A stretch of 64,000 nt of DNA from Polytrichum commune (taxonomy: Eukaryota; Streptophyta; Polytrichopsida; Polytrichales; Polytrichaceae). How positions within the stretch are numbered: position 1 is the first letter of the stretch; each line of letters opens with the position of its first letter. The notes beneath the pieces are model-generated. The model did not search any database and was not told the DNA's origin. It saw nothing but the letters and a program-made list of their open reading frames with translations. Location: the NCBI GenBank assembly GCA_950295325.1, contig OX485809.1, forward strand, positions 26,550,144 through 26,614,143, given 5' to 3'. The translations under genes were made by a program, and so were the position numbers. Positions 6,793-47,765 of the stretch are shown here, in pieces.

Positions 6793-6944
6793 GATACTCT
6801 ACCCTCGTTATATGTATGAATCTAAATGCTCTACTTATATATTGAGCTCAAAGGACTTCATGAAATATACAATAATTGATGTAATCCAAGATGTAGAAGA
6901 TCCAATTCTTATTGGTAAGATAAAGACAATACAATTGGAATAAA

Positions 6945-7072
6945 AAAAAGTTGGTGAAATAAAAAAGGTAATTGCACTTTTTGGAAAAGTCTTCCGATAC
7001 CCGCATTGGAATCATTTTTTATACCTCTTTGAAGCTTCTATATTTGATTAGTTATCCATTCATTCAATAAAT
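6945..7072 (+). repeat. Left arm of a ~127-bp inverted repeat
   Basis: The arm starts AAGTTGGTGAAATAAAAAAG and runs through TTGGAAAAGTC, CGATACCCGCATTGGAA and GAAGCTTCTATATTTGATTA. A matching inverted copy lies at about 8850-8978, with close to 88 percent identity by eye. The pair encloses 1.8 kb. I did not find a target duplication. Confidence 0.65.
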
Positions 7073-8849
7073 CACATATTTGTGCTTCAACCTTAGTGGT
7101 TCATATGGTTTCACAACCCATGTCACGCATCCCAAGGCCACTTTCATTCAATAAATCACAAATTTCAAATCAAATGACTTAGGAATTGACCATCCCAAAG
7201 TATTTATCACAAATGTAGGCGGTGCCACTAGTGAGAGTGGATCATCTACCACTGGCCTAGAGTACGTGACAAACTTTGGGGACTTGTGAACGTTGATGAC
7301 ATTCAAATTACAAACCCAACAACAATATTGCTTCCAATCTATCTTCAATTAAGGCATTGTGAATTGTACATTGTACATTACACTCAAATTGAAGGGGATC
7401 TCTGCATTTTGCAAAGTTTACCTCAAATCATCCCAGTGTCAAGCTAAGATGCCTCATAATTAATCCAATAATTAACCAGCCAAAGCATCACTCTTTGAGA
7501 TTTGTTGGGGCAAATTGTTCATTCACATGCCTGCACAAAACAATCGTGGAAATACATCCGCAAGAGACCATGAATAATGGTCTTGTGGGCCTTGTACTGA
7601 GCCTCCACCACCTCTATGATCGATCACCGTCTTAGCTGTAGGGCCTTCTTGGTTACAAAGGAAATTACAAGAACAAGGTTGAAGTTAAGTATGTAAGTGA
7701 GTGTAGGAAGTTCTCCAACTATTATGCGTTATGTTTTCCACATACTTGAGTTGCAGTTTATAGTACTTAAGTTGCCTAGTAGTACATGTCATCTCAATTT
7801 CTAGCATGTCAATTGACGTGTGGTTTTTTCTTCACAAGTCACAGTACGTGTCAACTTCTTAATTGTGCATGTCAATTGACATGCATTTTTTTTGCGAGTT
7901 TTTGCGTGTCAAAAGTGAATAACTTACAAAAACTTTGTCAAATATACACACTGCTTCCCCCCATCCCCCAGCCTTCCCCCCCTATGCTCCCGTACAGTGT
8001 GTATGTTTGACAAATTTCATTTGACATTCAACTCCAAATACAAAGTGTCATGTGACATTTTCAAAAACAAAAATGAATGTCAAAATGACATATACATTTA
8101 ATTCTAAAATGTCACCTCAATTTTGGGTTATACAATATTTTAGAAAAACTAATATTTAAATAATAAAAAATACAATCTTGATTTGTATCAAAAAACTATC
8201 AATCGGGCATAAGTATCCTTTGGTCTCATATGTTTCTCCAAATGTTGAAGATGGTAGCCCAATCCATTGCATCCACTTCAAGCCCACAAATAGAGACCCG
8301 CATAAGAGCATCAAGGGTCTTCAAGTTCAACCTATTGCGCAAGTGGCTTTTGATCGCATCTTGTTTGGAAAATCCTCTCTAAAAAATAGCTATACTTGAG
8401 GGAATGAGTATAATAATTTTCCAAAGTTACATAAGTTTAGGCCAATTTGTGTGCCATTCCAAATTGCTACCACACATGTGCTATTGTTTTGTTCTCACAC
8501 TCATGTCGAAGTGTTTTCATAAATTCCAAGAGTTCTCCCTTACACATGTCACTTTCTTCTTCAGTGTATTGAAACTCCAACAATATCCTTTTGAGCCACA
8601 ATTCGGTATTTGTGATTCAGTCACTATTATCGCTTGGATAATTACTAGGGTTAAAAAGTTTGGTTGCATTGAATATTGGGAGGTCTGGGAAACGATCATT
8701 CAAAACATGAACAATTTTTTGCACATAAGATGCATCCAATAATATTAATGGTTGTAGTTCATTGGGCCCATAACATCAAGTAGCAATGCTAGGAGGGTAC
8801 CCTTTGAGTACCCGCAAATTTACCTCAACAAGAAGGGAAAAGCTTGCAA

Positions 8850-9711: not shown

Positions 9712-9858
9712 GCCCCCATTCCCCCCGTCCACACCCCTTACCCCCGTTCCCGACCCCGTCCGACCCGTTCCCGCCCCCGTCCGCCCCGTTCCCTCCCGTC
9801 CGCCCCCGTTCCCGCCCATGTCCGCTCCGTTCCCTCCCCCCCCCCCCCCCCGTCCGCC
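9712..9858. repeat. C-rich minisatellite (CCCCCGTCCGCCCCGTTCCC type)
   Basis: Short degenerate units of CCCGTTCCC and CCCGTCCGCCCC repeat for ~145 bp. Open frames across it in all phases are composition artefacts (Pro/Gly/Arg only). The same repeat in the other orientation lies at 61,666-62,090, and both are joined to the same unique-looking block (9862-10130), so they belong to one repeat family. Confidence 0.8.
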
Positions 9859-9861
9859 CCA

Positions 9862-10130
9862 CACCCTCCTTAGTCATATTTTACTACTTTGATTTTAACA
9901 GAATGATAAACAGAATGGCAAAATGGTTTACCTGGCGCTATGCATATCCACGTCCACGTCGGCCTTTTCTGCCATATAGGACGTCACCTTGGCAAGAAGG
10001 TAAGTATTTTACCCACCCTACTAGCTTCCCCCTAGGTTGACCCTACGTGGACCCTATTGTGTTGTGACGGAGGGGTCCGTCACGACACAACACGTCATGA
10101 CGTCGGGATAGACAACCCTGGCGGTGAGCT
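9862..10130 (+). repeat. Dispersed repeat block, inverted copy at 61,385-61,665
   Basis: The block runs from the minisatellite edge through CTTTGATTTTAACAGAATGA, CAAAATGGTTTACCTGGC, CTTGGCAAGAAGGTAAGTA, GGACCCTATTGTGTTGTGAC and ends CGACGTCATGACG... in reverse sense near GTCTATC/GATAGAC. The same order, inverted, is found at 61,385-61,665. It includes the short palindrome TCCGTCACGACA with its complement across a 4-nt loop. No gene is present. It is probably the conserved part of a non-autonomous element. Confidence 0.7.
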
Positions 10131-10338: not shown

Positions 10339-11067
10339 TCAACTATCTAACTCCACCTCTTGAAGTGACAATGCCCTACGCTTGTTGGTTACTGTAGCGG
10401 TTTTCCAAGTGTCAAAAATGCCATTCCAATCCATGAATTCAACTCCCAAACTGTTTAGGCTAATCCTCATCAATGCATCAAGTGTGTCAAAGTTTAGGCA
10501 TGTTCTCCTTTCGCTCTTAACCCAATTCTGCTTTGAAAAACCACACTCACAAACAGCAGTGCTAGTAGGGATCACAAGTATGGCTTGCCATAGCGACATT
10601 AGGGTTGGCCAATTGATCTTAAACTCTCGGTCACGGCCACAAAAAACCCAATCTTCATGCATACTTCGGTGTTGACAAGCTGAAGATAACATCTCCACAA
10701 ATTTGAGCAACTCCGCATTGGCTTGATCAACAAGAACAGAGCTCCACTTGAAATGTGTCACCAACCGGTTCAACCATTGCTCAGTTAAAGTGCCTCGATC
10801 CAATGCATCCATGGGATAGTGTTTTGGGCTGAAAAGCCTGGCCGCATTAAAAATGGGCAAGTCGGGGAAGCGATCATTTAGTGAGTCAATAACCTTTTGG
10901 ACGTATAGTCTACCAAGGGTGATGCAATCCTCCAACGAGCCCCCTACATCACACCCGGCCAGGCATAGAGTCATAGTGCAAAGTATGCACTTTCTCACAA
11001 CCAAACCTATCAACATACAATTCCCATCTGGACTAATTCCCATTTGGATATGAGATCTGAAGCGCAA
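10339..11067 (-). pseudogene. hAT-family transposase, C-terminal part, copy 1
   Basis: The 242-codon minus-strand frame carries a clear hAT C-terminal (dimerisation) region: LWQAILVIPTSTAVCECGFSK, then KSERRTCLNFDTLDALMRIS. hAT family members use this C-terminal segment for transposase dimerisation. The canonical ERGFS is ECGFS here. The N-terminal half with the catalytic DDE residues is not found in frame upstream. The 137-codon frame at 11,070-11,483 is separated from this one by a stop and does not look hAT-like, so this is a truncated copy. A related, more decayed copy lies at 8200-9509. Confidence 0.7.
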
Positions 11068-11745: not shown

Positions 11746-12106
11746 TGGGCATGGTTTGGGTATGGATGCAATTTAAAGGAAAATGTTGGGCTCTGATAGG
11801 ATATCAATATGAATTAGCTTGAATATAACCTTTGAATGGCCATATTATAAAGATCATATTAGTTTACATGCATGACGGTCAATCATTAGTAGTGGTGGTG
11901 AAAAACTTGAGCCAAATTAGTACCAATAAAGAATGTCTTGGGCCTAGTTATCTATTTGTACTTCATGCACATACGACATAGAACTCCACTACCATCGGTC
12001 ATGATTACTATATATGGTGGAGGGTTAGTATGTGATGACCTTGTGGTGTTTGGAATCGGAGGGAATGCCTATTATGTACCTTCAAAATTGGAGGAAATGC
12101 TCACCT

Positions 12107-12116
12107 TATATATAAG
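12107..12116 (+). promoter_or_regulatory. Possible TATA box in left arm
   Basis: TATATATAAG lies in a stretch conserved between the two arms (right-arm counterpart near 20,010). No frame downstream of it on the plus strand looks like a real gene, so its use is doubtful. In the right arm the equivalent sequence would face inward towards the DUF7869 gene. Confidence 0.3.
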
Positions 12117-12249
12117 GGCGACCATTTGGAAGCTCATTTCTTTCTTTTCATTTTAGCCCATCCCCCTTGACTCTTGAAGAACTTACCATGGAGAGCGTTG
12201 CCTCACATGGATGAAGTGGTTAGTGTTTATAATCCAATGTAGCGTGCTA

Positions 12250-12620
12250 GTGAGCGCGTGGGGTCTCCCACGGGTGCGCCCGTGGTGTCTCCAAACGCAC
12301 TTGGCACAATAGTAGATGCATCTCATGGATGCGCCCGTGGTGTGTCCAAACACACTTGGCATAATAGTAGATGCATCTCACGGGTGAACACATGTGGGGG
12401 CTCCCAACCGGTGGGCGGAGTCTCCCACGGGTGAACGCTCGTGCGGGCTCTCAACTAGTGGGCTGAGTATCCCATGAGTGAACGCCCATGGGACAACTAG
12501 GCCCCCATGGGCGTTCACCTGTTGGAGATTTCATCCACCAGTTGGGATCCCCCACATGCGTTCACCCGTGAGAGACTCCGCCCACCGGTTGGGAGCCCCC
12601 ACGGGCGTTCACCCGTGGAA
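12250..12620. repeat. Palindrome array in left arm (CACGGGYGNNCRCCCGTG)
   Basis: Imperfect and perfect copies of a palindrome built on CCACGGGCGANCGCCCGTGG occur at about 12,268, 12,379, 12,425, 12,505, 12,552 and 12,600, plus half-sites near 12,328 and 12,478. Between them are CCCACCGGTTGGGAG-type segments that are also near-palindromic. Isolated copies continue inward at 13,456 and 13,690. Ordered subterminal motifs of this kind are typical transposase-binding sites in CACTA- and MULE-type elements. That function is inferred here. Confidence 0.8.
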
Positions 12621-12869
12621 GTCTGTGGGTTGTATTTTTGTTTCGCTTACAAGATTTACACATGTGTGGTAATAAGTTACTCTATATGCCTTGTGTGTTT
12701 TTTCATAAGAGTTATAATTTCACTTACATTTGTGAATTTTCTAGACTTAAGGGAATTTTGTAGTCCATGGGTAATTTGGTTAAGTTATTATGAAGTGGGA
12801 GTTTATACATGTATTATAATGTTGGTTACGATGATATAATTTAAATTGGAACTTAGATCATATAGTGAA

Positions 12870-13893
12870 CTTTGTTTTAAATGACATCTACTTCATCACC
12901 ACTTGGGATAACTTGTGTGACTTGCACCTACGTAGTAATAAGTGTGTAGAAGTATGCAAGTTTTCACATACTAAGAATGTGTGTGTGTGTGTGGGTGGGG
13001 GGGGGGGGGTTTGTTAGAAGATGTGTATTCAAATGGGAGCCATGGATATGTCAAGTAAAATGGGAATTACTTCGTGTTAATTTTGGTGTCGAGATTCTAA
13101 ATGATTTGTAGTTGGGGTTGTGTGGAATATGGTAAGGAGAGATTTTTTCCAAGGGGGATATGCTAAATTGAACACACTTCAACTATCATTGTGTGAAGTG
13201 AGGTGTAGAGCTTTACCACTACATGGCTTTATTAACTAAAATGAGCCAATTGGTCCGCTCAATTTAATGTAGGGAACGTGATGGGAACATAATGATTAAA
13301 AGTTGGTACGAGAGAATACCGGTTGAGGGTTCTTAAAATACAACTCAACCATTCCAATACACCCACACATGTTTATAAAGCCATGCAAATAATCAATTAG
13401 TGAATGGAAGATCTCATCAATTGTGACTCACGAAGGAATGTGCTTACACTCCACGGGTGAATCCCCGTGGATTGTTTGGGACCACCATGCACATTGGACG
13501 ACTCCCAAGCATGAAGAACATATTTCCAAAATATTACAATGCACATGAAAGTTCACATAATTGATGCCAATAAAAGGGGAAATGTGAACATCCCTAGACA
13601 AATGTCAATGTCTGGGGCTCCCCAATTTATGCACACATTTATCAAAATTGGGCATCTAACATGATAGTCCCTGTCCACCGAGGGTGTACACCACAGGAGT
13701 TCACCCGCGGATACCAAGGATTGAGCAATGCATATCCAATCTACATGCCTTCTGTTGATACCCCATCCTCGAATTGATCTCCACCGGTCATGTGCTCACC
13801 TCTTGTGCATCAATCTAAATTATCCTTTGCGAAAAGAATTTGCTTCACTAGGATGACAACATTGTCATCGGACGCATTCTTCTGTCTTGCCCA
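12870..13893. other. Noncoding interior of copy A downstream of the gene
   Basis: This stretch lies between the left arm and the stop codon of the DUF7869 gene at 13,894. It contains a (GT)n(G)n microsatellite at 12,968-13,010, two more copies of the palindrome (13,456 and 13,690) and no recognisable coding sequence. Confidence 0.5.
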
Positions 13894-14261
13894 TCATGCC
13901 ACAACACAATCTAGAGATTGACGAGTTGGAGCATATTCCTTGAGCCTCGTCCATCTAAAAGGTTTTGCCATGTCCCATTCCTCATAAAGTTCATCCAAGG
14001 TCTTCTTGTTCCTTGTGCCAAGGACCGGTACATAATACACAATCTCAATATAACGAGCATGAGGACCGACATGTGCCAAATTAGGCTCGGAAATCACTCG
14101 TCCCATCTAGACGGGATTAGCACAATCCTCACTAAGACGTAATAAGACATAATGGCCGACCCTGATATGTGCACCAGGACGAAAGGTCTCAACGGGTCGA
14201 GAACTAGCTGGTCCGACATAAGCATAGTGAGTGATGTTTTCCTCAAATAGATGCTCATTGT

Positions 14262-16064
14262 TGTGAGCTCAATTACATGCTCACATTTTAAGTTAGTCCT
14301 TAGGAATGTCAAATCTTTGAATTTGTAATTGTTGTAAGTTAGTTAAGAAGCTATATAGAATTGAGGGTTCAAAATTAGATGGAATTGAATTGAGAGTCCT
14401 CACACTAGGAATAAGTAAGAGTAAAACTCAAAAAGAGGTAAGTGATTAGTGTAGGGGTCAAGCTTCCTAGGGGGCAAGCCTCCTTGGGGGCAAGTTCAAC
14501 TTGAAATTAAGAAGTGCTTGATGACACGAGGGCTTTTTGTGAGGTGGCTCCGCCAAAGAAAGTGAGGGCAACTAAAATTGGGAGAGGACCTGAAGGGGGT
14601 CAGAGGGAAACTCTTGGATCCCTCATCTCGATTGAGGAGGTAGTCCCGGAGGGGGAAGGCCTCTGCTGGGTAGGAAGTTTAGTTAAAGGAGAGGTTGTGG
14701 CAAAAGCCGACGGGGGGCAATGCCGTCACGGGGGAAGGAAGATAGTGCAGCTCCGAAGAGGGGGTTGCAGGAATCGTCAAGGCCGGGTTCTCCTCTCTGG
14801 AATTGAGGCACTTGGGAAAAAGTGAGAGGCAAGGCTGGTCGGCAACTGCCGAGGGAGCTCGAAGTTCGGCAGCTCTAGTGGCTTCCCCAACCAAGGAGGA
14901 AATGTAATGAAAGCAGATCGAGGGAAACTGAGATTAAGGGGAAGCAGCTAGGCTACACTAAGTCCAACTGCAGAATTGCAGCATTTTTCAACTGAAAAAT
15001 TCAAAACAATCATTTAGGAGGCGCATGTGACTACATTGCCGCCCCAAGCATTGCTGCTGCTTGTAAGTGTGCGGGACATTATACTACCACACATGTGCCT
15101 CTTCTGTACACAAGGGCATGTCAATGCTACATTCACAGAAAAAAAATCTTAGGAGAGGTGCGAAACAGGGGAGTCACGGCTTGCCATGCAATTTTAGGGA
15201 GCTGAATAGTTGGCTAGTTGAATTCATTTGAATTCGGAAAACAACAGCTTCTGAAATCAGTCAATCAACCGGGTGGCTTCTGGGAGCATTCGCAAGCTGC
15301 AGCAAATCGGGCCGAGCGAGTTGGGGCGGTGACTGCAATCAAGGGACGCGGAGAGGTCTGAGCTCCGAGGTGAGTAGAAGCTAGGGAATTCAGGTGGGAT
15401 CAGGTTGTTGTTGGTTGTTGTTGCCCTCCTTCCCAATTTTTTGTGACTGCCAAGGGAATCAGTAGTTGCCGCGGTTCTATGATGCGAGGAGAGGCTGTCC
15501 CACCAACTGGGGAAATCGGGTTGACTACAGAAGACAATAACTTTCAAATCTGTTACATTGGGAGTGGAGGCTGCCGAATTGGTGAGGGGTGGCAGTGGAA
15601 GGAGCTGATGCGACCATGAAAACAACGAAAGGTGGCTGAGGAGAGAAGTGAACAACAGGAGCTGCAAGGGTTAATAGGGGACATTTAGCATAAGTGGATG
15701 GATTTGCAATAGGTGTGTGTGGAGCCAAGTAGCACCCTAATGGTGTGGCTTGAGAATTAGTGAGATTGAAGTAGGAGGGGTAGCCAAACTCTCATGTTGA
15801 GCTTGGTGCCGGCATTAACCTTGCTCAGGGAGTGAATTAGGGAATGTAGAGGCTTGAGAGCGGTTGTGGTGTGTGGCAATGACCTTGGAGTATTTCTAAA
15901 TACTCGCGACCTTGGGTTCTTGAATAAAGTTGTGTATTTTGAGATTTACATTGGGGGGCATCGGGTGCTGCGTGCAAATGGCTAAGTGCGGTCATTTAAG
16001 TATGTGCTAGCCGTAGGCCTTCACCCGGACTACGACGCATAAGGGTGGAGGTTTAGGGCTCACA
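14262..16064. mobile_element. E3: TG..CA insertion, 1,803 bp, TSD ATTGT
   Basis: Starts TGTGAGCTCAATTACATG and ends GTTTAGGGCTCACA, flanked by ATTGT at 14,257-14,261 and 16,065-16,069. Removing it and one ATTGT rejoins the DUF7869 frame exactly (ALHVDN on one side, EHLFEEN on the other), and the joined frame aligns with copy B at YVGP-S-RP. Its right end carries the block CGGACTACGACGCATAAGG, shared with the 58,266 end and, as reverse complement, with the starts of E1 and E2. An AATAAA lies near 15,923. No transposase or pol frame, and no repeated LTR pair, is present. It is either a solo LTR or a non-autonomous element. Confidence 0.8.
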
Positions 16065-16330
16065 ATTGTCCACATGTAGGGCAACTGCAATGGAGAACCG
16101 TGTTGAAGGCCAAAAGGGCTCGCTAAGTTCAGATGGAGTTGGAGATAAAGGATGATCCATAGCTGCAAGCACATTCTCCCAATATAAAATTGTTGGCGCA
16201 ATGGACTCCATATATGCCCCGGAACTATCTTGATTTGCCATATCCTTCCAATACTTAATAAAACCTTTCAGTCCAAGCTTTATGTTCATGGAATCTTTCA
16301 TTTCCCTTTTTGGAACGGGATGGGGACAGC

Positions 16331-16469
16331 CTACAAAAACAAATATACATTGAGCTTAGAGCAAAACCATGGACTAACGGCCCACGGGGGATCACCCGTG
16401 GGCCACGTGCATACCACCTTGTATTTTCTAGTGTACTTCCAAAGCAACATTGTCCAAACACCCACTAAC
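16331..16469 (-). other. 139-bp intron in the DUF7869 gene containing one palindrome
   Basis: On the minus strand the exon ends ...CCACCAA and the intron begins GTTAGT. It ends TTTTTGTAG before GCTGTCCCC. Splicing joins MFPP to SCPHPVPKREMKDSM in frame. Copy B has no intron at this point (TMLPDGEPRPCKPIF continues straight on). The intron holds CCCACGGGGGATCACCCGTG at about 16,381, a version of the arm palindrome. Confidence 0.6.
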
Positions 16470-18519
16470 TTGGTGGGAACATGGTTTTCTTTGTGACAGG
16501 GTCCACATTCCATAGAGCAATTCCTCCTTCTGGCGCCCAACTTGGATCTGTACAAAACACTTTGTATTGCATCAATGGCACTCCTTGAGGGTCTACATAA
16601 AAACGGAATTGGTGTGCCTTGGAATGCCCTATAAGTTGGTCTTGACCAAACTCATGGTAGTATCCCTTCACCCATTCCTTGAAATCAACAACCTCATGGA
16701 TCAAGTACGGGACAATAGTGGGATCCCCAGCTTCCATGGACGATGCCATGAGGTTGGGGAGTGTATGGCAATCCTCAATCTTCAACCTTTGTCCAAACCG
16801 GCCGAACATTGCATCCACATCCTCATGAGTATGTCCAACAATGAGGTTAGACACCCGGACTTCACGAAAAATTCCCTTTGCGGTCAGAGCATACCAAAAC
16901 AACATGTTGTATTTTGATTTGTTATCCTTTGCACAATTGTCCATCTGAATAAGCAAGAGGGGTGGCAACCCTGTAGGTGGAATAATTTTGGGCGGTGGCA
17001 AAGGAAGTGCTCCTGAACACTTCTCTACGCCAACCACCAGTGCGTCGTGCAAAGGGTCACCTATGGAAGAAATAGGAATGTGTCGAGTGGAGCAGACCAG
17101 TGGGACCTCAAATTGACAAAGCAACTTCATGATGGATGTGATAGTGAAGTTCGCATCGGATGGGTACATATCAAGAACATAATGCGCACAATTCACATCA
17201 GAGTGACCATGCGCAATCATTCCCGCAATGGATATTGGGAAACGCTCATATTTGTCAACACGTTTGTTTTTGTGCGCAAAAACAGGAAGCGCCGTTTTCC
17301 CATAATCCATTTTGTCATGAATGATACAAAGGACCTCTTTTGGAGAGTACTTTGACAAGATCCTATCTTTATAGTAATTGTTTCTATGAGCCTCCTGCAA
17401 TGTCAAATGCCGATGGCTAGCCTTCGAGATGGCCAAGTACCCAGTAGTGTTTTTTGTGTATATTCGCAATAAATCCTTGAAAGCTGCGCAAATTCCACAA
17501 CGTGAAAAGTTGTCCCCAGGGATCTTCACAACATATTGCTTGAAATGTTGTCGATGTAAGTGGCTAAAACTTGACATTGAAACAGGCGTGTACCCGAGGT
17601 CTTTGTCCAAGTTGTTCACTTCCTCTAGTAGCTTAGACCAAATTGTTCCCACAAGGAGCATCTCCGTACCTATCTTTTCACCAGTTGGAAGAGTCCAAGT
17701 CGTATGGGGCATGGATTCCGCTCTACCCTCAATCAATACTCCAAGAGTCACTTGTGCCTGCACTGTATTCGCCCTCGGCTTTCTGGTTCCTGTATTTCCA
17801 TGATCTCAAGATCTAACCCCCATCAAGCTGTCGGCCTTGTTCCTATTAAATTGTGCCCTTGATATTATGTAAATGTTCCTCCATGCACGAGTGCAAATTG
17901 TTCTTCCTTCCACAACAACCGTTTGCCTACCGTTGTGCTCTTGTTTCTGGATCGTTTGGAACACTGCAAGGGCAATGAGCTTCCGAGCATTGAATGGCAA
18001 GGCAAAGTAATGTTCCCAAATACTAACCAACAAAGGCCTTGGAAATACATGGCAACAATGCTCCTTGCAGCAATCAACCGTGGATAACATCCGTGCTCCC
18101 TCCTTAGTGGCACCCCAAGTTTTTTTCCCAGGTGCCCGAGGTGCCCGAGGTGCACATATCCTCACAGTGTTGTATCGGCGTTTTCCAAGCAAACGCCGAC
18201 GACTCTCATCTTCACGTGTCGCATTATGATGGACCAACAATATTTCCGCCAATGTGTGTCCTTCAAATTTCGTGAGTGATAAGGGCCACCGGTGTAGAGT
18301 ATTCTCCCAATCCATCGAAATGACATTGCCAGTTGGGTTCAAGATAATTACTCCAACATCTTCATCGCCAAGGATGTTATTGTCAACACAATCTAGCGGA
18401 TTAGTGTTGCAAATTAACCCATCACACAACGCATGATCCCCATCATCAAAGAGGACAACCGACTTACCCTTCAAGTCCTTCCTCAACAATCCAATGTAAC
18501 GTGGTATCTGAATGTAAAC

Positions 18520-20312
18520 ATTAATATATATTAGTGCACCATATCACTCTAGGCAGAACAATATCATCACGTTGTCCCATACTCATGAACAGTAAGTAAT
18601 GAAGGCCACATTGACTTGAAATTTCTAGGTCACATTCACTATACGCAGTAATTTCCAATTTCAACAATATCATCGTAACCAACATTGTAATAAATGTTTC
18701 AACTCCAACTTCATATTCACAAGTCCTAATTACCCATGGACTATAAAAGACACCCAAATATAGATGTTCACAAATAGGCAAGGAAGAACAATTATAACAC
18801 CCATGAAGATACATGCAAGACTTATGGAGTAACTTATTCCCACACACGAGCATTGAGTTTTGCTCGTAAAGTCATACATCCCATATACCCTCACGGGCGA
18901 ACGCCCGTGAGGGCTGCCAGCTGGTGGGCATAGTTTGGCACGGGCGATCGCCCGTGGGGGATTTAAACTGGTGGGCAGAGTCTCTGACATGCGAATATGA
19001 AGGTTGCATTGACTTGAAACTTCTAGATTACATTCACTATATGAACTAAGTTCCACTTTCAATGATACCGTCTCAACCAACATTTGTAATACATGTGTCA
19101 ACTCCCACTTCATAGTCATATGTCCAAAATTGACATGGACAACAGACGAACACCTAATTCTTAGGTCTACACAAATAGGCATGTAAGCATAATTGTAACT
19201 CCCACGAAGAAACAAGCCAGACATATGGAGTAGCTTATTTCTACACATAAGCAAAGAGCCTAAAGAAGAATAGAAATACAACCCCGATCTTCCACGGGCG
19301 AACGCCCGTGGGAGCTCCCACCTGGTGGGCGCCGTTGCCCACGGGCGAACACTTGTGAGGGCTCCTAGCTGGTGGGCATAGTCTGGCACAAGTGATCGCC
19401 CGCGGGGGATTTTAATTGGTGGGCGAAGTCTCTGACATGCAAATATGAAGGTCGCATTGACTTGAAACTTCTAGATTACATTCACTATATGAACTAAGTT
19501 CCACTTTCAATGATATCGTCTCAACCAATATTTGTAATACATGTGTCAACTCCCACTTCATAAACATATGTCCAAAATTGACATGGACAACAGACGAACA
19601 CCTAATTCTTAGGTCTACACAAATAGGCATGTAAGCATAATTGTAACTCCCACGAAGAAACAAGCCAGACATATGGAGTAGCTTATTTCTACACATAAGC
19701 AAAGAGCCTAAAGCAGAATAGAAATACAACCCCAATCTTTCACGGGCGATCGCCCGTGGGAGCTCCCACCTGGTGGGCGCCGTCGGCCACGGGTGCATCC
19801 GTGAGATGCACCTACTATTGGGCCCAATGCATTTTCAAGGCTCCACGGGTGCACCCGTGGGGGACCCCACGAGCTCAATAACGCGCTAAAGTGCATTATT
19901 GACACTAACCTCTTCATCCATGTGTGACACGCTCTCCATGGTAAGTTCCTCAAAAGTCAAGGGGATGGCCTTCAATGATAAGAAAGAAATGAGCTTCCAA
20001 ATGGTTGCCTTATATACAATGTGAGCATTCCCTCCAATTCCTAACACCACAAGGTCATCACGTACTAACCCCCTACCATATAAAGTAATCATGACCGATG
20101 GTAGTGGAGTTCTATGTCGTATGTCCATGAAATACGAATAGATTACAAGGGCAAGACGATTCTTCCTTGGTACTAATTTGGCTCAAGCTTTTCACCACCA
20201 CCACTAATAATTGATCCTCGTGCATGTAAACTAATATGATCTTCATAATATCCCCGTTCCTAGCCTAAAGTCAAGCTAATTCATATTAATACCCTATTAA
20301 GCTTAGAAACCC
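18520..20312 (-). repeat. Right inverted arm of copy A with 444-bp duplicated units
   Basis: Inverted relative to the left arm. A unit beginning ATGC(G/A)AATATGAAGGT at 18,993 is repeated at 19,437 (period 444 bp, about 97 percent identical by eye), and a more diverged unit lies at 18,590-18,880. Palindromes of the CCACGGGCGANCGCCCGTGG type sit at 18,891, 18,939, 19,292, 19,340, 19,388, 19,741, 19,788 and 19,843. Long open frames on the minus strand here come from this repetition and are not genes. Confidence 0.75.
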
Positions 20313-20399
20313 ACTTAGGCACGTCTCCCATAGCACCACGTAGACATGTTTAATTCCAAAATATTTTTGAACTTATGGACATCTTCATTTGATGTTCAA

Positions 20400-23100
20400 C
20401 TTCACATCCAAAGTAGCACATGACGTTATAGGTTCTAAAAATGTCTGTCAATTGACATAGTGTACCTTAATTTTAAAAAACCATTTGGGGATGACATTTT
20501 ACAACACACACAATTATGACACACAATTATCGAGCCTAGGCTACGCGATAATTCTTGTGCACATGACATGATTGTATGGGCAAATTCGAATGATGAATAT
20601 GCTTACATGAGTTTCTTGTTTTAATCATTATACCTCTAAGGTATTCTGAGTGTATGAATTCCATAGAATTGTCCTATATAAATCCCACATGGACATGTCC
20701 ACGTGGGTTATTTATCAAATGAATCATACATCCAATATATTTTGAAGGTGAGCATATCAAACAACAAACACCAAACATATACAATCTTAAGGTAGATAGT
20801 GAGCTTTAGTATGTCTTATTTGTGCCCATTATTTCTTACATTTGGGGATGATATTTTACAACACACACATTATGACACCCAATTATCAAATTTAGGTTTC
20901 GCGATGATTCTTGTGTAGATTACATGATCGTATGGGCAAATTCGAATGATGGATATGCTTACGTGAGTTGCTTGTTTTAATCATTACACCTCTAAGGTAT
21001 TCTAAGTGTGTCAATTCCAAAGAGGAGCCCTCCATCTATATATATATATGTATGAAAATTAGTATGGTATTCATACGGGGGCATGTCCTATATAAATCCC
21101 GTATGGACATGCCCACGTAGGTTATTTATCATATGAATCACACATCCAATATATTTTGAAGGTGAGCATATCAAACAACAAACACCAAACATACACAATC
21201 TAATAGATGGGCTTGCAACGGACCAACTACACATTCAGTGTCCGGGGAGGGTATCTGTAAACCCTAAACCCTAAACCATTTTAAGACGGGCATTTCTTAG
21301 TTTGGAAGGTAGGGATGTCAATACTAATGGAATATTCTATTTGTACCAATATATGTGTGCATATGATCAATGTGTGTATAATAGGCATTTCATCCAATTC
21401 CTAACATCACAAGGTCATCACGTACTAACCCTCTACCATACATAATAACCATGAGTGATGGTGGTGGAGTTCTATGTCGTATGTCCATGAAGTACGAATA
21501 GATTACTAGGGCAAGAAGATTCTTTCGTGGTACAAATTTGGGTCAAGCTTTTCACCACCACGACTAATGATTGCTCCTCGTGCATGTAAAATAATATGAT
21601 CTTTATAACTTTCCCGTTTATAGGGACTACGTTTCTAATGAAGTTGACCGTCAAGCTTACAGTGGTTGTTGTTTTTCGAGTGGCCAGACCAACAAATTTA
21701 AATTTCATGTCATATATTTTAAAGTGGCCACCTTATTGGCCGCCCACATCTAACTGTATGGCATTAATAGGTGTCCATACTTATATATGAACATTAGTAT
21801 GGTATTCATACCGGGCATGTTACATGTATTATATACACCCCACATGGACATGCCCATATGGGTCATTTATTAAATGAATTACATCCAATATATGTAGAAG
21901 GTGAGCATATCAAACAACAAATACCAAACATACCCAATCTTATAGTGGATAGTGAATTTTTACATCTCTTATTTGTGCCCACTATTTCTAGCATTTGGAC
22001 ATGACCTTTTACAACACCCATATTATGACACCCAATTATCAAACCTAGGGTACGCGACGATTCTTGGTCACATTCCCCTAATTATGAGAAAAATAGCCAC
22101 AAACAAGATTTGAACCGCCAATGATCGTGCGTTTAGCACACTAAATTTAGATGTAGTGTTTGAACATATATAGTGTTGTTACCACCCTACCATGCTCAAA
22201 AATACTTTCCAATTCCTTGATATTTAGTGGTGGACATAAATGTGCCGCTACCTTGCATATCATCGCTTCCCTTCTTGTGTGCGTTGACATTTCATTTACA
22301 TTTAATGTTATTTAATTTCATAGGGTTATTGACATGTAGTGTGTGCGTTCGTATTTGTTGTATTAGCTATTTAATGAGAATGCAATTGACCTTACCAAAC
22401 AAAGTAAATTATGTTCCATAATGTTGAAACAAACTATGGAATGTCCAGGTAGGCTATCAGTGTTACAGAATATATGTGAGCCGTCCATTTGAAAATGGAA
22501 TGTCCGGGTAGGCTATCAGTGTTACGGAATGATTGGATGGGAGGGTATCTTAGAGGGCAAATGTTGGTTAATTATGGAGGGAATTGTAATATGTGTATAC
22601 ATATGATACGAACAAACATGCAAAACCATCCGGGGACCATACCATATTGAATGTTCGGTTGTGGACTTGCAACGAATGAACTACACATTCAGTATCCAGG
22701 GAGGGTATCCGTAAACCCTAAATCCTAAACCCTTTTTAGACGGGCACTTCTTAGTTTGGAAGGTGCGGATGTCAATACTAGCATGAACTTATCCCTTCTC
22801 ACTTTGGGAAGGACATTCAAGGCCGTCAATATGAAGGTCAAGGAGTGACATACCCAATTTAAGTTTAAGACGGGTACATCATATTCCAATGAGAAGAAGA
22901 CAATCTCATACCCAATATTGTGGAGGTCACACATTATAACATACGCATTATGACACACAATTATCGAACTGAGATCATGCTACGATTTGTGTGGACATTA
23001 AATGATCATATGGGCAACTCCCAATAATGGACATGCCTACGGGGGAAACTTGTTTTAATCATTATACATGTAAGGTATGCTAATTGTATGAATTTGAAAA
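20400..23100. repeat. Nested direct repeats of a ~350-400-bp unit
   Basis: A unit with ACACACAATTATGACAC, TACGCGATAATTCTTGTG, GTATGGGCAAATTCGAATGA, CACCTCTAAGGTATTCT and GAAGGTGAGCATATCAAACA occurs at about 20,500 and 20,850. Partial copies lie at about 21,150, 21,890-22,060 and 22,930-23,090. A second repeat of ~110 bp with GGGAGGGTAT..GTAAACCCTAAA..CTTAGTTTGGAAGG is at 21,215 and 22,676. A 36-bp segment (GGTAGGCTATCAGTGTTAC) is repeated at 22,446 and 22,506. There is no coding signal. Confidence 0.7.
21390..21620 (-). repeat. Isolated end fragment of the DUF7869-type element
   Basis: This fragment is close to the outer right arm of copy A (20,030-20,260): it shares AAGGTCATCACGTACTAACCC, GAGTTCTATGTCGTATGTCC, CAAGCTTTTCACCACCAC and CTCGTGCATGTAAA. 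It lacks the inner arm and palindromes, so it is a relic end of another copy. Confidence 0.7.
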
Positions 23101-24443: not shown

Positions 24444-24676
24444 GGTCTCTCCCTTCTCCTCCCCACTTTTTTCTGATTCACAAAAGACAAATTTGTTGAG
24501 AGAACGAGTGGTGAGACTGTCGTCCTTTCGAACCGCCAGCAGTTGGATTGTTGGGGCCCCGCATTTTTTCAGTCACCGGCAGTTGGCTTGCCGGGACTCT
24601 GTAGCAGTTAGACGGAAGAGAGGGATCCGGAAGAGAGAGAGAGTCTTCAAGCCGGAAAGTTAGAAAGGAGAGGAAA

Positions 24677-26735
24677 ATGCCGGAAGCACGGGAAGAGGAT
24701 CAGCGGGAACCCATTCCGATTCCGCTCAAAGCTCTCACCCCTGCAATTCCGAGGGAGGATAGGGAGCTGCAGGAGCTCGCGGAAGATCTCCGGGTTATGG
24801 GCTGTGCGGGATTGCTCTCCAAACCCTGGAACCTCAGGGCGGAAGATACCCTACGTGAGTTCAAATTCGAGAGAGGAAATCAGTGGCTAGGAACAAAGAG
24901 GAGGGATCCGGAAAATTGGACTCCGGATACTTGGAACAGGGTCTACGGGTTTCCTAGGGGGATTGCAGAGGAGTGGGCAGGCCGCCGTGACGGCCTGTTC
25001 GCCGGAAAGTTCAGAGGGGACGCGGATCCAAAAGACGACTTCCATCCCGGGAACTGCCGGAACCTGAGGGAGAGGAGGGTACTCGAATTTCTCCTGCCCA
25101 TCCTCAATCCGGACAAGCCGAAGCGGATTAGCCTCACCATGGCTAACACCCTGTTCGGTGCCATGTCCGGAGTCCGGCCCGTGAACTGGGGTTTGATCAT
25201 CCAGGAGATAGTCGGGCGGGCCCTCCCCCACATTGGCCGGAAACCCTCCTTTCTCTCCCCCTTCATTTTGCACCTCTACCAGCACTTCGACTGCATCTTG
25301 GCAGAGGAGGAGGACCTGCTAACGATAGCGGCGGACGAGGTCACCTACAAGCTACTCCCGGAAGCCGGAGACCTCGAGACGGAGACTTCCAACGACCCAA
25401 TTCTTCCGGAAGCACCTCCCTCGTCACCCGGAAGCCCGCCGCCAACCGTCTCGAGGCCACTCTCTCCTCCTCCCCCTCACCATCATCCGGAAGCCGGACC
25501 CAGCCGGGAGACCACATGGCGGAATGTGGATCTATCCGCTTGGGACTTTCCGGAGAATCCCTTCAAACGGATCCAGGATGGGATGGAGGACCTGCAGAAC
25601 CAGTACTACCGACTAGAACACATCGTCCGAGGAGCGAACCAGGCTCTGGACGACTGCGGACCCGGAAATATTCTCCGAGAGTTGGCAAAGAGGGTGGACA
25701 GGAAGGAGCTGGAGCAGGCCAAGACGGAGAACGCCCATCTCACCGCGCAGGTAGTGGCTATGACTCAGGAGCGAAGAGATCAGGAAGTACCACGCGGAGC
25801 AGGCAGTGCTCTTCAGCCGGATCCGGGAGCTGGTGGGGCATCCGGCAGAGATCGTCAACAAGGCGCATCTCTACGACCGGATGATGGAGTCCGGAGAACC
25901 CGCTTCCGCCAGGCATACCCTTCCCATCCTCGTGAAATACTCGCGGACGATGAAGGATCTCCCGGCGGAAATCCAGAGGGTGGTTCCGCCAAGCGGAACA
26001 CCCCGGCGGGTACTCTATCCGGGTCCGCCCGGGTCCCCTACCGGAACCCTGTACGAGGTAGTTGGCGAGGTCGCTCTAGTTCAGAACCCGCCAACGTCTG
26101 CAGGACCCAGCCAGCAGGGAGAAGGCTCTCGGCCGGCTAGTTCCGGGAGAGCTCCGGAAGGGGTCCGTTCTCCCCAGGTGAGGAGGAAGAGTACCGGGTC
26201 GGTCAGATCCGGAAGAGGCCAGTCCCCTGTTCCGCGGAACTCGGATCGGTCCCGGACTCCGGACAGGGCTAGGACACCGATCCGACATCAGACTTCGGAT
26301 CGAGAGGCAACTCCGAGTAGGGGCAATGCCCCTATGGCCCACGCCTCGCCGTCGTCTCCTCCGGACTGCCAAATGGTCAGTCCCTTTCCTCCGCCACCCT
26401 CAAGAGCGGCCTCCAACAGGGATCCGCGGACTACCTCGATGTCGGGCGGGCAGAATCCGGAACAGGGCACCGGAAGCGATCCTTCTCCGGTCCGGAGCAT
26501 CCGGAAAGAGACAGTTTCCGGAACCCCAGGGGCAGTCTCCGGAACACCAAGGACCGGGACACCGCGGACCGAGGGAGTAGCGGATTCGGAGGACGAGATT
26601 GCCCCGTCTCCGAACATGAGGAGGATGCTCACACGGCTCCAGAAGGCATCGCCGGGTGGAGGCTCATCCGCCGTCAGCGGACTCGGCAGTCATTCGAAGG
26701 AAGGATCGGCTCAGAAGAAGCACCGCTCTTCTTAG
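24677..26735 (+). pseudogene. E4 gag-like protein, one frameshift
   Basis: From the ATG at 24,677 the first frame is protein-like to about 25,785, after which the +1 frame takes over (KYHAEQAVLFSRIRELVGHP) to the stop at 26,735. Repairing one base would give about 685 residues. The N-terminal ~210 residues form a conserved-looking globular part (WTPDTWNRVYGF, GKF, RRVLEFLLPILNPDKPKRIS, VNWGLIIQEIVGRALPHIGR, SFLSPFILHLYQHF). A Pro/Ser/Glu linker, a coiled coil (about residues 300-400) and a long Ser/Arg/Pro-rich tail follow. No zinc knuckle, protease or RT is present. Spacing of W-x-x-[IV]-[IV]-Q and S-x-F-[IL] motifs resembles the frame at 52,754. It could be a gag-only (TR-GAG-like) protein or a putative plant transposon protein. 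A programmed shift cannot be excluded. Confidence 0.55.
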
Positions 26736-42110: not shown

Positions 42111-42116
42111 CGGATA

Positions 42117-42540
42117 GTTTGGGTCGGACGACCCAAACCCTTCTCCATAGTGGCCAGGTACTAGGGTTGACTCACAGCCCATCCTGCCCTACAAAGTTTG
42201 GGTCGGTCGACCCAAACCCTTCCCCACATGGGGCAGGTACTAGGGTAGACTCTGAGCCCATCCTGCCCTATAAGGTTTGGGTTGGTCGACCCAAACCCTC
42301 CCCCACATGGGGCATGTATTGAGGATGACTTTGACCCCATCATGTTCAACAAGGTTTGGGTCGGTCGACCCAAACCCCTACCCTGCAGTGGACAGGTATT
42401 ACGGATGATACTAACCCCATGCCCCACAAAGTTTGGGTCAGTGGACCCAAACCCTTTCCCATAATGAGGATGTACAAAGGATGACTCTGACCCCATTTTG
42501 CCTCAACAAGGTTTGGGTCGGTCGACCCAAAGCCCTTTCC
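42117..42540. repeat. Palindrome array of copy B, six units, 79-bp period
   Basis: The palindrome TTTGGGTCGGTCGACCCAAA (with small changes) starts at 42,117, 42,196, 42,275, 42,354, 42,431 and 42,511. Spacings are 79, 79, 79, 77 and 80 bp. Each unit also contains a CCCCACATGGGG-like small palindrome and an AGGTA(C/T)TAGGGTxGACTCT segment. It ends about 290 bp before the first recognisable codon of the DUF7869 gene, like the arm palindromes of copy A but with an unrelated sequence. Confidence 0.85.
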
Positions 42541-44700
42541 CCAATGATGATTATGTGTCAATCTGACGACGCAATCATTACAATCGCAATGACATAGTAG
42601 TCATACAAACAGGTGTCAGGACTAAGTGTCCCCGAATTTCATGAAGTGGAATATTTTGATTATTTTGCTTTTGGATCCTAAAACTTGTGTGCCGCTTTGA
42701 CAAGGCTCGATGTGGATGTGTGTAGGCACGATAGAGGGATATAATGAACGAGGGGATTGCTCCTCAGAAGACATGGCCACTTGACTATCTGCATCTGAGG
42801 ATGAGCTTGACATTGTCGGGGAGGCCACTATGGATGACAGTGCAGATGAAGATCATTTGGGGGGTCCTTCGGCTTCCGTTCTGTTTTGCCCCATTGTGGA
42901 ATGTGTAGGGCTTTCAAGAGCTTCGTGGGTGAATTTGGAGGTGATACTTGTTAATGACAGTGGAGTAGCTGTGGCGGAGGGTATTTGTCGTAACGCCCAT
43001 CCACAAGATTGCAGTGATGAAAACCCACTTGGCACTGAGGATGTTGGGGTTGTCATATTGGAGTCACTCATTCATTCCGAGGTGGATCCCACTTATAGGT
43101 TTTCCCTCTGCAGGTAGCCATTGAGGAATGTCACGATTGATGAAATTAGTTTGCGTGAACGTGAACAACGACGCATTCAAATCCAAAAGGAGCTCCAAAC
43201 AAACATGCGGCTACGCAAAGGTCAACGAAAGTACGAGACATTGGCACGTCCTACTGCGTCTACAAATAAGTGTAAACGTCAAAGGTTGCTCAGTGAAGAG
43301 ACCATCAGAGAAGTTGCCACAAAGGATTGTTGTGTGCACCGTTGTTGCCAATTGTTCCCAAGGGATAAAATGAAGGCCATTTGGGATGAAATGTGGCTTG
43401 GAGATTTCCGTCTAAAATCCATCAAAAAACTTGATGTGCATAGGACGATACATGTGAACGGGGTTGGTCGCAAGGTCATCACCCTTGAAAGCATAGATGT
43501 GTGTTGTATGGCATGGTACATCATTCACGGTGTGTCCAAAGCGGAATTTTATAGACAAGCCGCATATGCCAAGGAAGGTTGCCGGTCCCGTCACCATAGA
43601 AACATGGGTTTGAAGAAACCTAAGGAAGCCACAAGGCAAGCAACTGCCACTTTGGCGACTATCATTGTCCCCCTTGCTGATGCAATGCCGCACAAAACAC
43701 ACACACTCGCAACCGGTGAAAAGGTTGTGGAGAAGGTTCTTCCCACATGCACAAAATAGAAAGACATATTGTTGGACGTAAATGCAGTTGGCGAGAAGGC
43801 CGGTTTGGAGCCAATTTCATTGTCAAAATTGAGTGCAATCAAGAAAGAAAATTTTAGCGAATACATTACAAAAAGACGAAGCGACAAATTTGCATGGTGT
43901 TCCAATTGCGAGAAGTTGAAGCGCCTTCGGGATGCATACATGATGGGTACCGAGTCCTATGCAGCACATCAATTGAACTATTTCAAGCATGTGAACATGC
44001 AAGAGGCACACCGTAATGATTACTATACAAATAAAGCCTTGTCCATTTCTAGGCCCTTGGAGGTCCTTACTGTCATCCATGATAAAATGGACCATACCAA
44101 AACAACGTCCTCATGTTTTGCAAATCGAATCAAAGCCATGGATGGATTTTTTAAGCTACATGTATCGGTTACATGTGAATTTGGAAACAACTACATCACA
44201 TACCCTAAACACAACTTTGTTTGTTTTCCGTGTTGGACATGGGGACATAGATGTACAAAAAATGGATTATTTAAAGATGTATAGTAATATTCTGGGTTGG
44301 CATTGCAAGAATGATTGCACATGGACATGGTGACATCAAGTTTGCTCATTATGCTCTCGATTTGTATCCGGCGGACTCAAACCACACAATAGGGTCATTT
44401 GCAAGGCTTTTACGTGATTTGGAGAAACCCCTGTCCTGTTCTTGAAGATTGTTATTTGAAAACATGGGATCAACACCTCTATATGAAGCGGTGTTGGATG
44501 GAAACGACATATGCCTGCATTCGTTGCCAAAGCCACCTAGTGAACCCGTGTTTGCCATGAAATTGCCCCCACTATGCGTGTCCAATTGGACAATTGTGCC
44601 ATGGATAATAAAAATAGATATGTTTTTGCATATTGGTCGTTGTTGGCTGCGAAAGGCATTTTCAAGGAAGTGTTTGTGCCCTTTCTTTTAGTAGGCCACT

Positions 44701-46124
44701 GTGAGGCCAAACCCACCACCCTTAAGCGTCCTAGTCCGGGTGATGATTTTGAGAATCACATTCAATTCCTAATACCATAATGTGGATTGCTGTATGGCTC
44801 TTATGTCCTAGGTACTAATTTCATCTCAACTCAACTTGCTTTGTTATTGTGATCATCGTTGCTCGTAGTGGAATTTGATTTCTCAAGGGTCCCGCCGCAG
44901 CCTTGGCCACACATGCCCTTAAAGAGATCCCTCTAGACTTCTTGATTTTTACGTCCTTAATCTTGTCCTTGCTAGGATTCTCCACATTCTCCATTAATTA
45001 TGCACGTGATTTATTCCAACCAAAGAGTGCGAGTGTTTAAAAACACTTACCTCAATGGGTAACCACCAACACATTCAAGAGTCACACACACTTCTACTCT
45101 CCTAATGAATCCAATTTTACCTAAGAACCAAGATGGCATGAAAGAACCTAGTGTGGTCTAGCAATCCGGTAAGGGATTAGCCTAACTACCCCCCCCCCCC
45201 ATAGTAACCTAACTTATTGAAGCTAACGAACTAGCCTTAGGCCCAGCAGAAATACAACCAGCAACCTTGGCTGTCGTGGGCTTGGCCCAACAGAAATGCA
45301 GTCCCGCAGCCTTGCTGCCATGGCCTTGGCCCAGCATAAATACAACCAACAGCCTTGCTGCCGTGGCCTTGGCCCAACAGAAATGCAGTCCCGCAGCCTT
45401 GGCCCAGCAGAAATACAACCAGCAGCCTTGGCCCAGCAAAAATACAACCAGCAACCTTGGCTAAGTCATGAACTAATCTAAGTATCTAAGTCATGAACTA
45501 ATCTAAGTCATGAACTAATCTAACACCCTACTTTTACTAACTACCACCTAATCACTACATGCAATCTTAAGCTTTAAGAGCTCACTCACTTGGGAGGCCT
45601 TGAGAGAGAGAGCTTAAATAATTAACTTCACTAAAACTAATAACCCACACACGTGGCTCAAGCTCTTAGGAGCTTGCTCCCTTGAGAGCGCTTGATGGAG
45701 AGAGAGAAAAATAAGAGAGAAACCACCTTAAGTAGTAAAGAGGGAGAGAGGGAGAGAAAGGTAAGGATAGGGTGAGAGGATTAGCACCTCCAATCACAAT
45801 CCCTTAACCTTCACCTCTAAAGTAGGGACTAATCCCCTTCCACCAAGCTTCCTTCTTCCTAAACTAACAAGGTGGATCCAAAAGTGGGCATTTAACCCGC
45901 GGAGCTCACCTTGCTTCACCTTACCCCCTACTCACATTATCAAGGCATACTCTTATTGAATTCAACCTTGAAATAATCACACAACACATTCTAAAGCCTA
46001 AACTTAAATCCAAACCACACTTCATTCTTTTTATGTTTTGTGAATAATCATAACACATCAAAGTCAAACTAAAATTGGTTTCGAAGAGTTAATCACCACA
46101 TGTGGGCACCATTTTGGGCTCACA
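44701..46124. mobile_element. E2: TG..CA insertion, 1,424 bp, TSD GCCAC
   Basis: Begins TGTGAGGCCAAACCCACC and ends CCATTTTGGGCTCACA (inverted ends TGTGAGGCCAAA/TGTGAGCCCAAA, 11 of 12). It is flanked by GCCAC at 44,696-44,700 and 46,125-46,129. Excision restores LLVGH-THDD exactly, the most conserved DUF7869 motif (VGHTHEDVD in copy A). The start has CACCCTTAAGCGTCCTAGTC, matching the shared terminal block, and the last ~110 bp match E1. It contains a tandem repeat (45,238-45,470) and a GAGAGAGAGCTTAAATAATTA segment. There is no gene inside. Confidence 0.8.
45238..45525. repeat. Tandem repeats inside E2
   Basis: Units of CCTTGGCCCA(G/A)CAGAAATA plus CAACCAGCAG (about 27-30 bp, with a longer ~60-bp variant containing GCAGTCCCGCAGCC) repeat for ~230 bp. 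They are followed by three to four copies of CTAAGTCATGAACTAAT. Frames on both strands here are artefacts of the repeat. Confidence 0.8.
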
Positions 46125-47164
46125 GCCACACGCACGATGATATTGATGCATCTTTTGGGCCGTGGAGCATGAAATTGCAAGAGGAGGATTTTCCAACAAT
46201 CTTATTGTTGATGAAGTCATACATGGATTTGGAGAACGTTCCCGTCATCCCCCATATGATCGAGGAGGTGCCCAACTTCAAGGCATTTATAGAACCGTAT
46301 ATTCGAAGTGGAGTTTACCGTTTGATCGGGCACACAAAGGCACAACAACTCCGGTTCTACATGCAGGGCGATGGTGTCACCGCTATGTAATACAAGTTGT
46401 TGTACACTACACAAGACTAGAGCCCGCTGGAGGGTCTCCTTGTGTGGCGCGTTGATGCGGATGGAAAGACGATGTTACCGGACGGGGAGCCTAGGCCTTG
46501 CAAGCCAATATTCATGAAGAATTTGGAGGATATTGTAAAAGGCATATCAGGCTTCATACAATATTGGGAAAGTTTGAATATAGCGGATGTTGGTGGGTCA
46601 TGTTGGCATCGTTACGGGAGTTGGATACAATATTGGACACGTGTTTGTGCCGCCTTGGCAGACCTTCAAGATACCTCCCTTACTTTGAAGCATGGATTTT
46701 GGCCACAAACACGAGTTGATGTACAAACTTCGGAGGCTAGTCTTTTGGGAAATGGAGAGGTTCTTGAGGAGTTTGATGTGGACGACCATTACGTCGGGCC
46801 TACTAGTAACCGTCCACCACCATCTTTCCGCATTGCAGTGGATTGTCATGAAGGCTATATGCTCATTTTGCATCCTGGAGATGAGACATATGCAAAGCCA
46901 GTGTGGGTGGCAAGAGCTTCGTCAAAACCAAATTTTGCAACTTCCAGCCCTCATTTTCGACAAATTCAAGTGGAGTACTACCGACCAACGGCACGGAATG
47001 AAGATGTAATTCGGCATTACACGGGCTAGGATACAAACCCTAACTTTCGGTGGAAGGTGGATTCTGAGCACGGTCCATCTTGGATAGATACAAATTCCAT
47101 ATTCATAGCATGGAAACCACGGAAAAATCATAGTGGATCAGTGTCCATCCCTCAAAAGTACATA

Positions 47165-47765
47165 ATTTTTGCTAAAGACAACCTTCCTCGGATCAAACAA
47201 GAAGCATGTCATGTTGAATGAGAAGTTGGTAGGATTGTGTTATCATAATAATTATAGTTCCATATGTAACTATAGTAGGCATATATTAATCATATGTGTG
47301 CTCCTCAAAATAAAGGTAGAGTGTGGGTTGAACTTAAGAACGCTATATTGTTCGGGGTTGGATGAATATCCATATAGAATATTTGCCAACAAATGTGAAC
47401 TTTATTTTATTATCATGTGGGGGATTAAATTATATGGTTGAATAAAATTTCATTTATTACATGATGTTATGTAGCTTGTAGTGTATATATATATTATTGG
47501 TCATGTTAATAATAGAAATCATTATGTATGCTTTGTTTTGGCGAAGTTGGTTTCAAATGCTTTATCCAATGTGTTTTTGTTGATGAAGTTGGTGTCAAAT
47601 GCTCTACCTAATGTGCTTATGTCGGCCAACGATTGATTTTGGGATACTAGGACTGATAATATATTTGAGATTGTTGACAATATAGTTTTGGGCGACATCA
47701 TATTCTTGTGGTCTATATATTAATTTGAGATAAGAGAAAGTCTCATTTTAACGAATATAGTGTTT
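47165..47765. other. AT-rich noncoding
   Basis: This lies downstream of DUF7869 copy B. No palindrome array, inverted arm or gene was seen, so the right end of copy B seems to be lost or unrecognisable. Confidence 0.4.

Follow-up and report, generated by a model that had tools for sequence, protein, structure and literature searches.

The stretch of DNA analysed here (the window) comprises 64,000 nucleotides of the Polytrichum commune genome (assembly GCA_950295325.1, contig OX485809.1; C7:26550144-26614143). It carries on its minus strand, between two inverted arms, a gene for a protein with the domain DUF7869 (Pfam PF25273, E = 1.2e-43, 149.3 bits against a gathering cut-off of 26), referred to below as gene 1. 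The original prediction, made from the window alone, described this as the single open gene of an 8.5-kb DNA transposon limited by the arms. A gene is present at that place, but it makes up only part of the gene content of an intact element, and the frame from 18,507 to 13,894 is interrupted by four in-frame stops (one at 17806-17808 and three in the last exon) and by a 1803-bp insertion resembling a long terminal repeat (LTR), and thus this copy is dead. The likely explanation is a DNA transposon of the cut-and-paste type, of which the window contains a decayed copy, with the DUF7869 protein most likely the transposase and the product of a second gene (gene 2) its partner.

Copies of the element in the genome

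The 408-Mb assembly (64 contigs, with seven large contigs of 42-78 Mb seen) was searched with the last exon of gene 1 and the sequence beyond it (window 13894-14500), a query which the other copies match up to approximately base 370. At least 40 matches were obtained from 88 candidates, 40 of which were scored; one of the matches is the window itself. Twenty of the 40, scoring alike (17 at E 1.0e-128 and three at 3.2e-130), were taken and 10 kb was fetched around each; because they were picked for alike scores, the sample probably over-represents young copies. All 20 have the left terminus ATGGGGATATTAACTAAAATGAG directly after unrelated flanks. Two copies, A (L011, on C1) and B (L025, on C5), were extended to the far end and measured 24,961 and 25,100 bp, respectively. 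The two ends of copy A are inverted repeats over 34 bp, 29 of them identical. The far ends of the other 18 were fetched with a query of 600 bp placed across the right end of copy A, about 499 bp of it element (40 scored of 221 candidates). With A and B included, the inverted complement of the left terminus was found at the other end in 19 of the 20 copies (one base off in one), and a perfect 4-bp target duplication of varied sequence in 18, when the chance expectation of a 4-bp match is 1/256. The 19 copies with both ends are 22.0-62.5 kb long, with a median of 25,092 bp; the longest (L014) probably holds nested insertions, since its target duplication is still present.

The element is thus a DNA transposon with terminal inverted repeats (TIRs), as had been predicted: many near-identical copies have exact common termini, and inverted termini with target duplications occur at independent sites in 18 of 20. 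The expectation of full copies with identical arms and target duplications was borne out for the copies and the duplications but not for the arms, which are not the ends of these copies. Segmental duplication, or a retroelement that had captured the gene, could also multiply such sequences, and LTR-like insertions do lie inside both DUF7869 genes of the window. However, the flanks of the copies differ, 18 of the 20 have their own 4-bp duplication at inverted-repeat termini, each LTR-like insert carries a 5-bp duplication of its own, and copy A lacks an insert at the corresponding position; we regard such an origin as next to impossible.

The copies are young. Over 3.9 kb from the left terminus, the divergence among the 190 pairs of the 20 copies had a median of 0.47 % and a maximum of 1.46 %, with 21 pairs below 0.1 %, and 16 of the 20 have both main exons without interruption. 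Common termini, 4-bp duplications and uninterrupted exons together identify a recently mobile DNA transposon, and both gene sets are present in it. The ratio of nonsynonymous to synonymous substitution (dN/dS) was calculated with our own Nei-Gojobori script, stop codons being left out. It was 0.156 between copy A and the window (683 codons). For L005, a closer relative of the window copy, the ratio was 0.086 against copy A (367 codons) and 0.199 against the window copy (365 codons); the values involving the window copy include relaxed change, as it is a pseudogene. Compared in this way, the coding sequence of gene 1 shows purifying selection.

The window copy and its arms

The inverted arms are real: 11796-12340 and 20297-19787 are 81 % identical over 547 bp, and when gaps were allowed in the self-alignment the match extended over 11790-12869 and 20302-19033. 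They are not the limits of the element. Its closer relatives (L004-L010) share 90.5-93.8 % DNA identity with the window copy, by piece. In six of these seven the alignment begins at the counterpart of window 13221-13223, and no arm match is found in the approximately 820 bp outside; in L009 it begins only at 13683. The terminus itself was read in five of the seven, after unrelated flanks, and window 13222-14259 aligns with copy A from the terminus of copy A. The left arm (11790-13221) therefore lies outside the element, since the six relatives start where it ends and have no arm match beyond. It repeats a gene-1 5' flank in inverted orientation, with pieces matching copy A from 7565 down to 6404, and is probably the remnant of another, older copy into which the window copy inserted; a gene belonging to this older copy was not found. 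A genome search with the left arm, in which 40 of 71 candidates were scored, gave at least 40 matches. Many of these are paired or in threes, in opposite orientation and a few kb apart, near L004-L008, a grouping expected of 5'-flank repeats that lie inside elements.

The right arm is the 5' flank of the window's own gene 1 and internal to the element. The corresponding flank at L057, near L005, continues in alignment with the window as far as 20668 and again over 20829-21206 and 21782-22031. The right terminus was searched for within the window and not found, and so this copy is either truncated or its end has decayed.

The proposal that arm, gene and arm form the 8.5-kb transposable unit of a long-armed subfamily draws on the arms ending at matching points with similar sequence. 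Six of the seven relatives, however, align only from the inner point at 13221-13223 and have no arm beyond it, one relative runs on past 20302, and no matching target duplication was seen by eye at 11790 and 20302. Intact copies, moreover, are about 25 kb long with two gene sets. We therefore regard such a unit as very improbable. The arms were ruled out as terminal repeats: what they repeat is the 5' flank of gene 1, and the real terminal repeat has a length of just 34 bp. The features of the window are collected in Table 1.

Table 1 Features of the window connected with the DUF7869 genes
Feature	Position	Strand	Remarks
Left arm, outside the element	11790..13221		Inverted gene-1 5' flank
Left terminus of the window element (ATGGCTTTATTAACTAAAATGAG)	13222..13244	+	Homologue of the terminus of the 25-kb copies; from copy A alignment and starts of relatives
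DUF7869 gene, last exon, 3' part	13741..14261	-	Three in-frame stops
LTR-like insertion (solo LTR) in last exon	14262..16064		1803 bp, TG...CA; 5-bp duplication ATTGT on both sides
DUF7869 gene, last exon, 5' part	16065..16331	-	Upstream limit approximate
DUF7869 gene, main exon	16465..18543	-	Putative 5' limit; stop at 17806-17808; DUF7869 domain in second half
Right arm, 5' flank of the gene	18600..20302		Tandem repeats and mostly CACGGGCG-type palindromes
Further element body	20303..22031		Pieces in common with 5' flank of one relative; arm fragment 21378-21623
79-bp tandem array around GGTCGGTCGACC-type palindrome	42116..42543		Just upstream of second gene
Second, divergent DUF7869-type gene (B type)	42893..47191	+	In-frame stops; approximately 34-59 % amino acid identity by piece
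LTR-like insertion (solo LTR) in second gene	44700..46124		5-bp duplication GCCAC

The decayed gene is 86.9 % identical in DNA to the intact gene of copy A over 16065-18512, and the 3' part of its last exon has 82 % amino acid identity to the intact last exon. The insertions that split both DUF7869 genes of the window have ends that are alike (44 bp, 86 %); the term LTR is used for them on the basis of their ends and duplications.

No TIRs scoring above shuffled sequence were found around the second gene (score 37; 30 single-base shuffles with mean 35 and maximum 57). When the arms of the first copy were compared with the flanks of the second, five of eight comparisons exceeded the best of ten shuffles, mostly slightly (the largest 51 against 39), and we do not count so small an excess in sequence scores as kinship. 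Approximately 520 bp past the second gene, at 47742-47757, lies a weak terminus-like match with three mismatches, its side and distance roughly as expected; as the window has four such matches against 1.2 expected, it is no evidence of a terminus. B-type genes were also met elsewhere in the genome. The left flanks of A-type elements that were compared, 25 in number and 0.8-3.0 kb long, include four (L008:1-825, L017, L013 and L019) situated within or next to a B-type DUF7869 gene. For L008 and L017, which belong to different subfamilies, the insertion points at the homologous site of such a gene are separated by about 8 bp, which suggests a target preference.

Gene products and palindromes

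In copy A, the main exon of gene 1 has an open frame of 692 amino acids and the last exon adds approximately 258, with an intron between them that contains a palindrome; the product would have about 950 amino acids from the two exons, counted from a putative start. Its DUF7869 match (158.2 bits against the cut-off of 26) is somewhat stronger than that of the window gene. The A- and B-type proteins are approximately 40 % identical and, in an alignment from which L009 (stops) and L010 (a stop) were left out, have in common the motifs HDKMD, [ML]DNCAxDNK and HTH[ED]D[VI]D. The acidic residues of these motifs in copy A are D410, D535 and D577 (or E574) in the numbering of the main exon, spaced by 125 and 39-42 residues. 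According to a review, RNase H transposases may be inferred where the first two acids are on or near strands 1 and 4 and the third is near a later helix (PMC5718144). In the second of two AlphaFold models, of low confidence, beta strands span 403-409 and 529-535, and each of the first two motifs follows a strand or falls at its end; residues 542-555 form a helix and 561-567 a further strand, behind which comes the third motif. On the strength of the RNase H order of its three acidic motifs, DUF7869 is most likely a DDE/D transposase domain.

Several observations speak against the proposed transposon or its proposed transposase. Copy L015 has no target duplication although both its termini are intact, and the right terminus of L028 is disrupted or lost. 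The third motif reads HTYDNID in the B-type gene at L017. Both AlphaFold models have low confidence (mean predicted local distance difference test scores of 33.0 and 38.3), and thus the better one is consistent with an RNase H fold without demonstrating it; a phmmer search against the PDB gave chance matches only (E 0.91 each). Between the young copies A and L028, dN/dS was 0.39, on few changes. Finally, gene 2 could be the catalytic one.

Gene 2 lies toward the right end of copy A on the opposite strand, as a cluster of open frames of 482, 429, 626 and 274 amino acids, all four uninterrupted also in copy B. The 274-amino-acid frame matches NIF phosphatase (Pfam E = 3.8e-11); the other three had no accepted match in Pfam and none in NCBIfam. 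A genome search with the 482-amino-acid frame gave at least 92 matches (88 scored of 807 candidates). It has a match inside all 20 copies, 18 of them nearly full length (some with a stop), partial in L013 and in two pieces in L018. In five of the seven copies of the window's subfamily (not L009 or L010) it lies 16-36 kb from the left terminus, with 72-74 % amino acid identity. Two matches have a frame of 895 amino acids interrupted by a single stop, suggesting one gene for the 482 and 429 frames, and 15 matches at 24-28 % identity, with frames of 309-706 amino acids, point to a wider family. No gene-2 frames were found in the window. A motif NGQH in the 482-amino-acid frame may be reminiscent of ParB-like folds, for which the searches gave no support. 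In the left flank of L026, a second NIF-phosphatase-like stretch (565-1203), 37.5 % identical to the NIF frame of the element, lies just outside the element.

The constancy of its first frame in all 20 copies, its conservation in five copies of the window's subfamily and its distant relatives with long frames are what could be expected if gene 2, from the 482-amino-acid frame onward, were the recombinase and DUF7869 an accessory protein. Its frames, however, have no nuclease or transposase match in Pfam or NCBIfam, and the series of acidic motifs sits in DUF7869; we regard this assignment as unlikely.

The palindromes that had been predicted throughout the arms were counted as 16-bp palindromes in which no more than one pair was mismatched, and compared with five shuffles of two-base blocks. 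An excess was confirmed for 13222-14245 plus 16063-20302 (15 sites against 0-4), whereas the left arm alone had only two (against 0-1). Copy A has 35 sites against 6-9, and the rest of the window (20303-64000) has 41 against 14-20, approximately a twofold excess. As the rest of the window is also in excess, what is special to the element is not the palindromes themselves but their sequence. In copy A, 19 are of the CACGGGTG...CACCCGTG type: seven start in 6349-7193, upstream of gene 1, four in 19221-19588, upstream of gene 2, one is in the intron of gene 1 and seven are within and after the gene-2 cluster. None of the 19 is inside the 34-bp TIR. The palindrome of the window's subfamily is mostly CACGGGCG, and the B-type gene has arrays of GGTCGGTCGACC upstream. 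The palindromes are probably sites for regulation or for an accessory protein, different from lineage to lineage; alternatively, tandem duplication and concerted change could have made them lineage-specific.

Taken as a cut-and-paste transposon, the intact element of approximately 25 kb would work as follows. Its imperfect TIRs (34 bp in copy A), set between 4-bp target duplications, would be cut by the DUF7869 DDE/D transposase encoded at the left end, which would join them to targets cut with a 4-bp stagger. Gene 2, transcribed in the opposite direction toward the right end, would provide a large protein, probably an accessory or DNA-binding partner, and in the 5' flanks and introns of genes 1 and 2 the similar palindromes would probably serve as regulatory binding sites. 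We infer the identity of the catalytic protein, the roles of gene 2 and of the palindromes, and excision rather than copying.

Relation to known transposons

The element, in which the original prediction saw a candidate for an uncharacterised class, may well be an oversized member of the Sola superfamily and so of a kind already described in the main, with DUF7869 the Pfam name for a Sola-type transposase domain, a reading we slightly favour and which is compatible with the transposon proposed above. In published descriptions, Sola elements have a DDD transposase, 4-bp duplications, variable termini and TIRs of 11-1124 bp, are mostly 2-9 kb in size with some above 15 kb, and occur in the moss Physcomitrella (PMC10741241), for which Sola1 is listed (PMC9033089); in flowering plants they are described as uncommon (PMC10741241; PMC9033089). 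The 34-bp TIR of copy A (29 identical) fits this range, as do the 4-bp duplications (18 of 20, varied), and in the series of three conserved acidic motifs Asp comes last. However, 25 kb with a second gene cluster exceeds the usual Sola size. No family named Sola is among the Pfam or NCBIfam matches of the element's proteins.

Plant CACTA (En-Spm) elements have a transposase and a second protein, as the present element has two gene sets. They are also large, usually above 10 kb and in some cases above 20 kb, and have short TIRs, but their duplications are 3 bp (PMC10741241) and their termini CACTA or CACTG, whereas here the duplications are 4 bp and the terminus is ATGGGG; no CACTA transposase domain is among the element's Pfam matches. 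Ginger1 resembles it in 4-bp target duplications and in having a DDE transposase, the kind proposed here. It duplicates CCGG (75 %) or CCGT/ACGG (24 %) and has TGTNR at its ends (PMC2836005); the targets of the element vary instead and its terminus differs. Kolobok, likewise with 4-bp duplications and a DDD/E transposase, duplicates TTAA (PMC9587614), a sequence found in none of the 18 duplications of the element. Mutator-like elements (MULEs) are described with 7-12-bp duplications and relatively long TIRs (PMC10741241), unlike the 4 bp and 34 bp found here. With Kolobok, Ginger1, CACTA and Mutator excluded, Sola remains, as judged from published descriptions.

The organisation of the element, very large, with a probable recombinase gene at one end and more genes inside, also has a likeness elsewhere. 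The Starship giant transposons of fungi are very large and have a probable recombinase gene, the tyrosine recombinase captain, at one end and further genes inside. The element differs from them in its inverted-repeat termini and 4-bp duplications, and no tyrosine recombinase domain is among its Pfam matches.

It is also possible, although we hold it rather doubtful, that DUF7869 is a transposase superfamily of its own, of giant two-gene transposons with an end-located DUF7869 recombinase, a constant partner and a lineage-specific palindrome co-evolving with the protein. The palindrome is CACGGGTG in one subfamily, mostly CACGGGCG in that of the window and GGTCGACC in the B type, changing with the protein. 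DUF7869 proteins occur in other eukaryotes, and if this reading were true they would be transposases or domesticated ones. If DUF7869 is distinct from Sola, a new transposase superfamily would be at hand; if it is Sola, an orphan domain would be tied to that superfamily. No mention of DUF7869 was found in the literature searched. Pattern scans of viral contigs and of bacterial and archaeal genomes, and tblastn in phages, gave no confirmed relative; two further pattern hits were judged unrelated by eye.

A Pfam domain of unknown function gains a concrete candidate role. As copies have been located in which the genes are uninterrupted, the termini exact and the target duplications clean, excision and integration could be assayed directly. 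The recent burst also concerns a DNA transposon of 25 kb with a second cluster of genes, which could be mis-annotated as host genes.

The open reading frame at 10339-11067 resembles, by eye, the C-terminal part of a hAT-type transposase, and those at 24605-26735, 38682-40197 and 52745-55363 we take, also by eye, to be retrotransposon-like (gag-like; copia-like protease and integrase pieces). Plant-type telomere-like repeats are present at approximately 21260-21279. An inverted repeat, 83 % identical, lies near both ends of the window (9732-10102 and 61431-61787), its two parts 51 kb apart.

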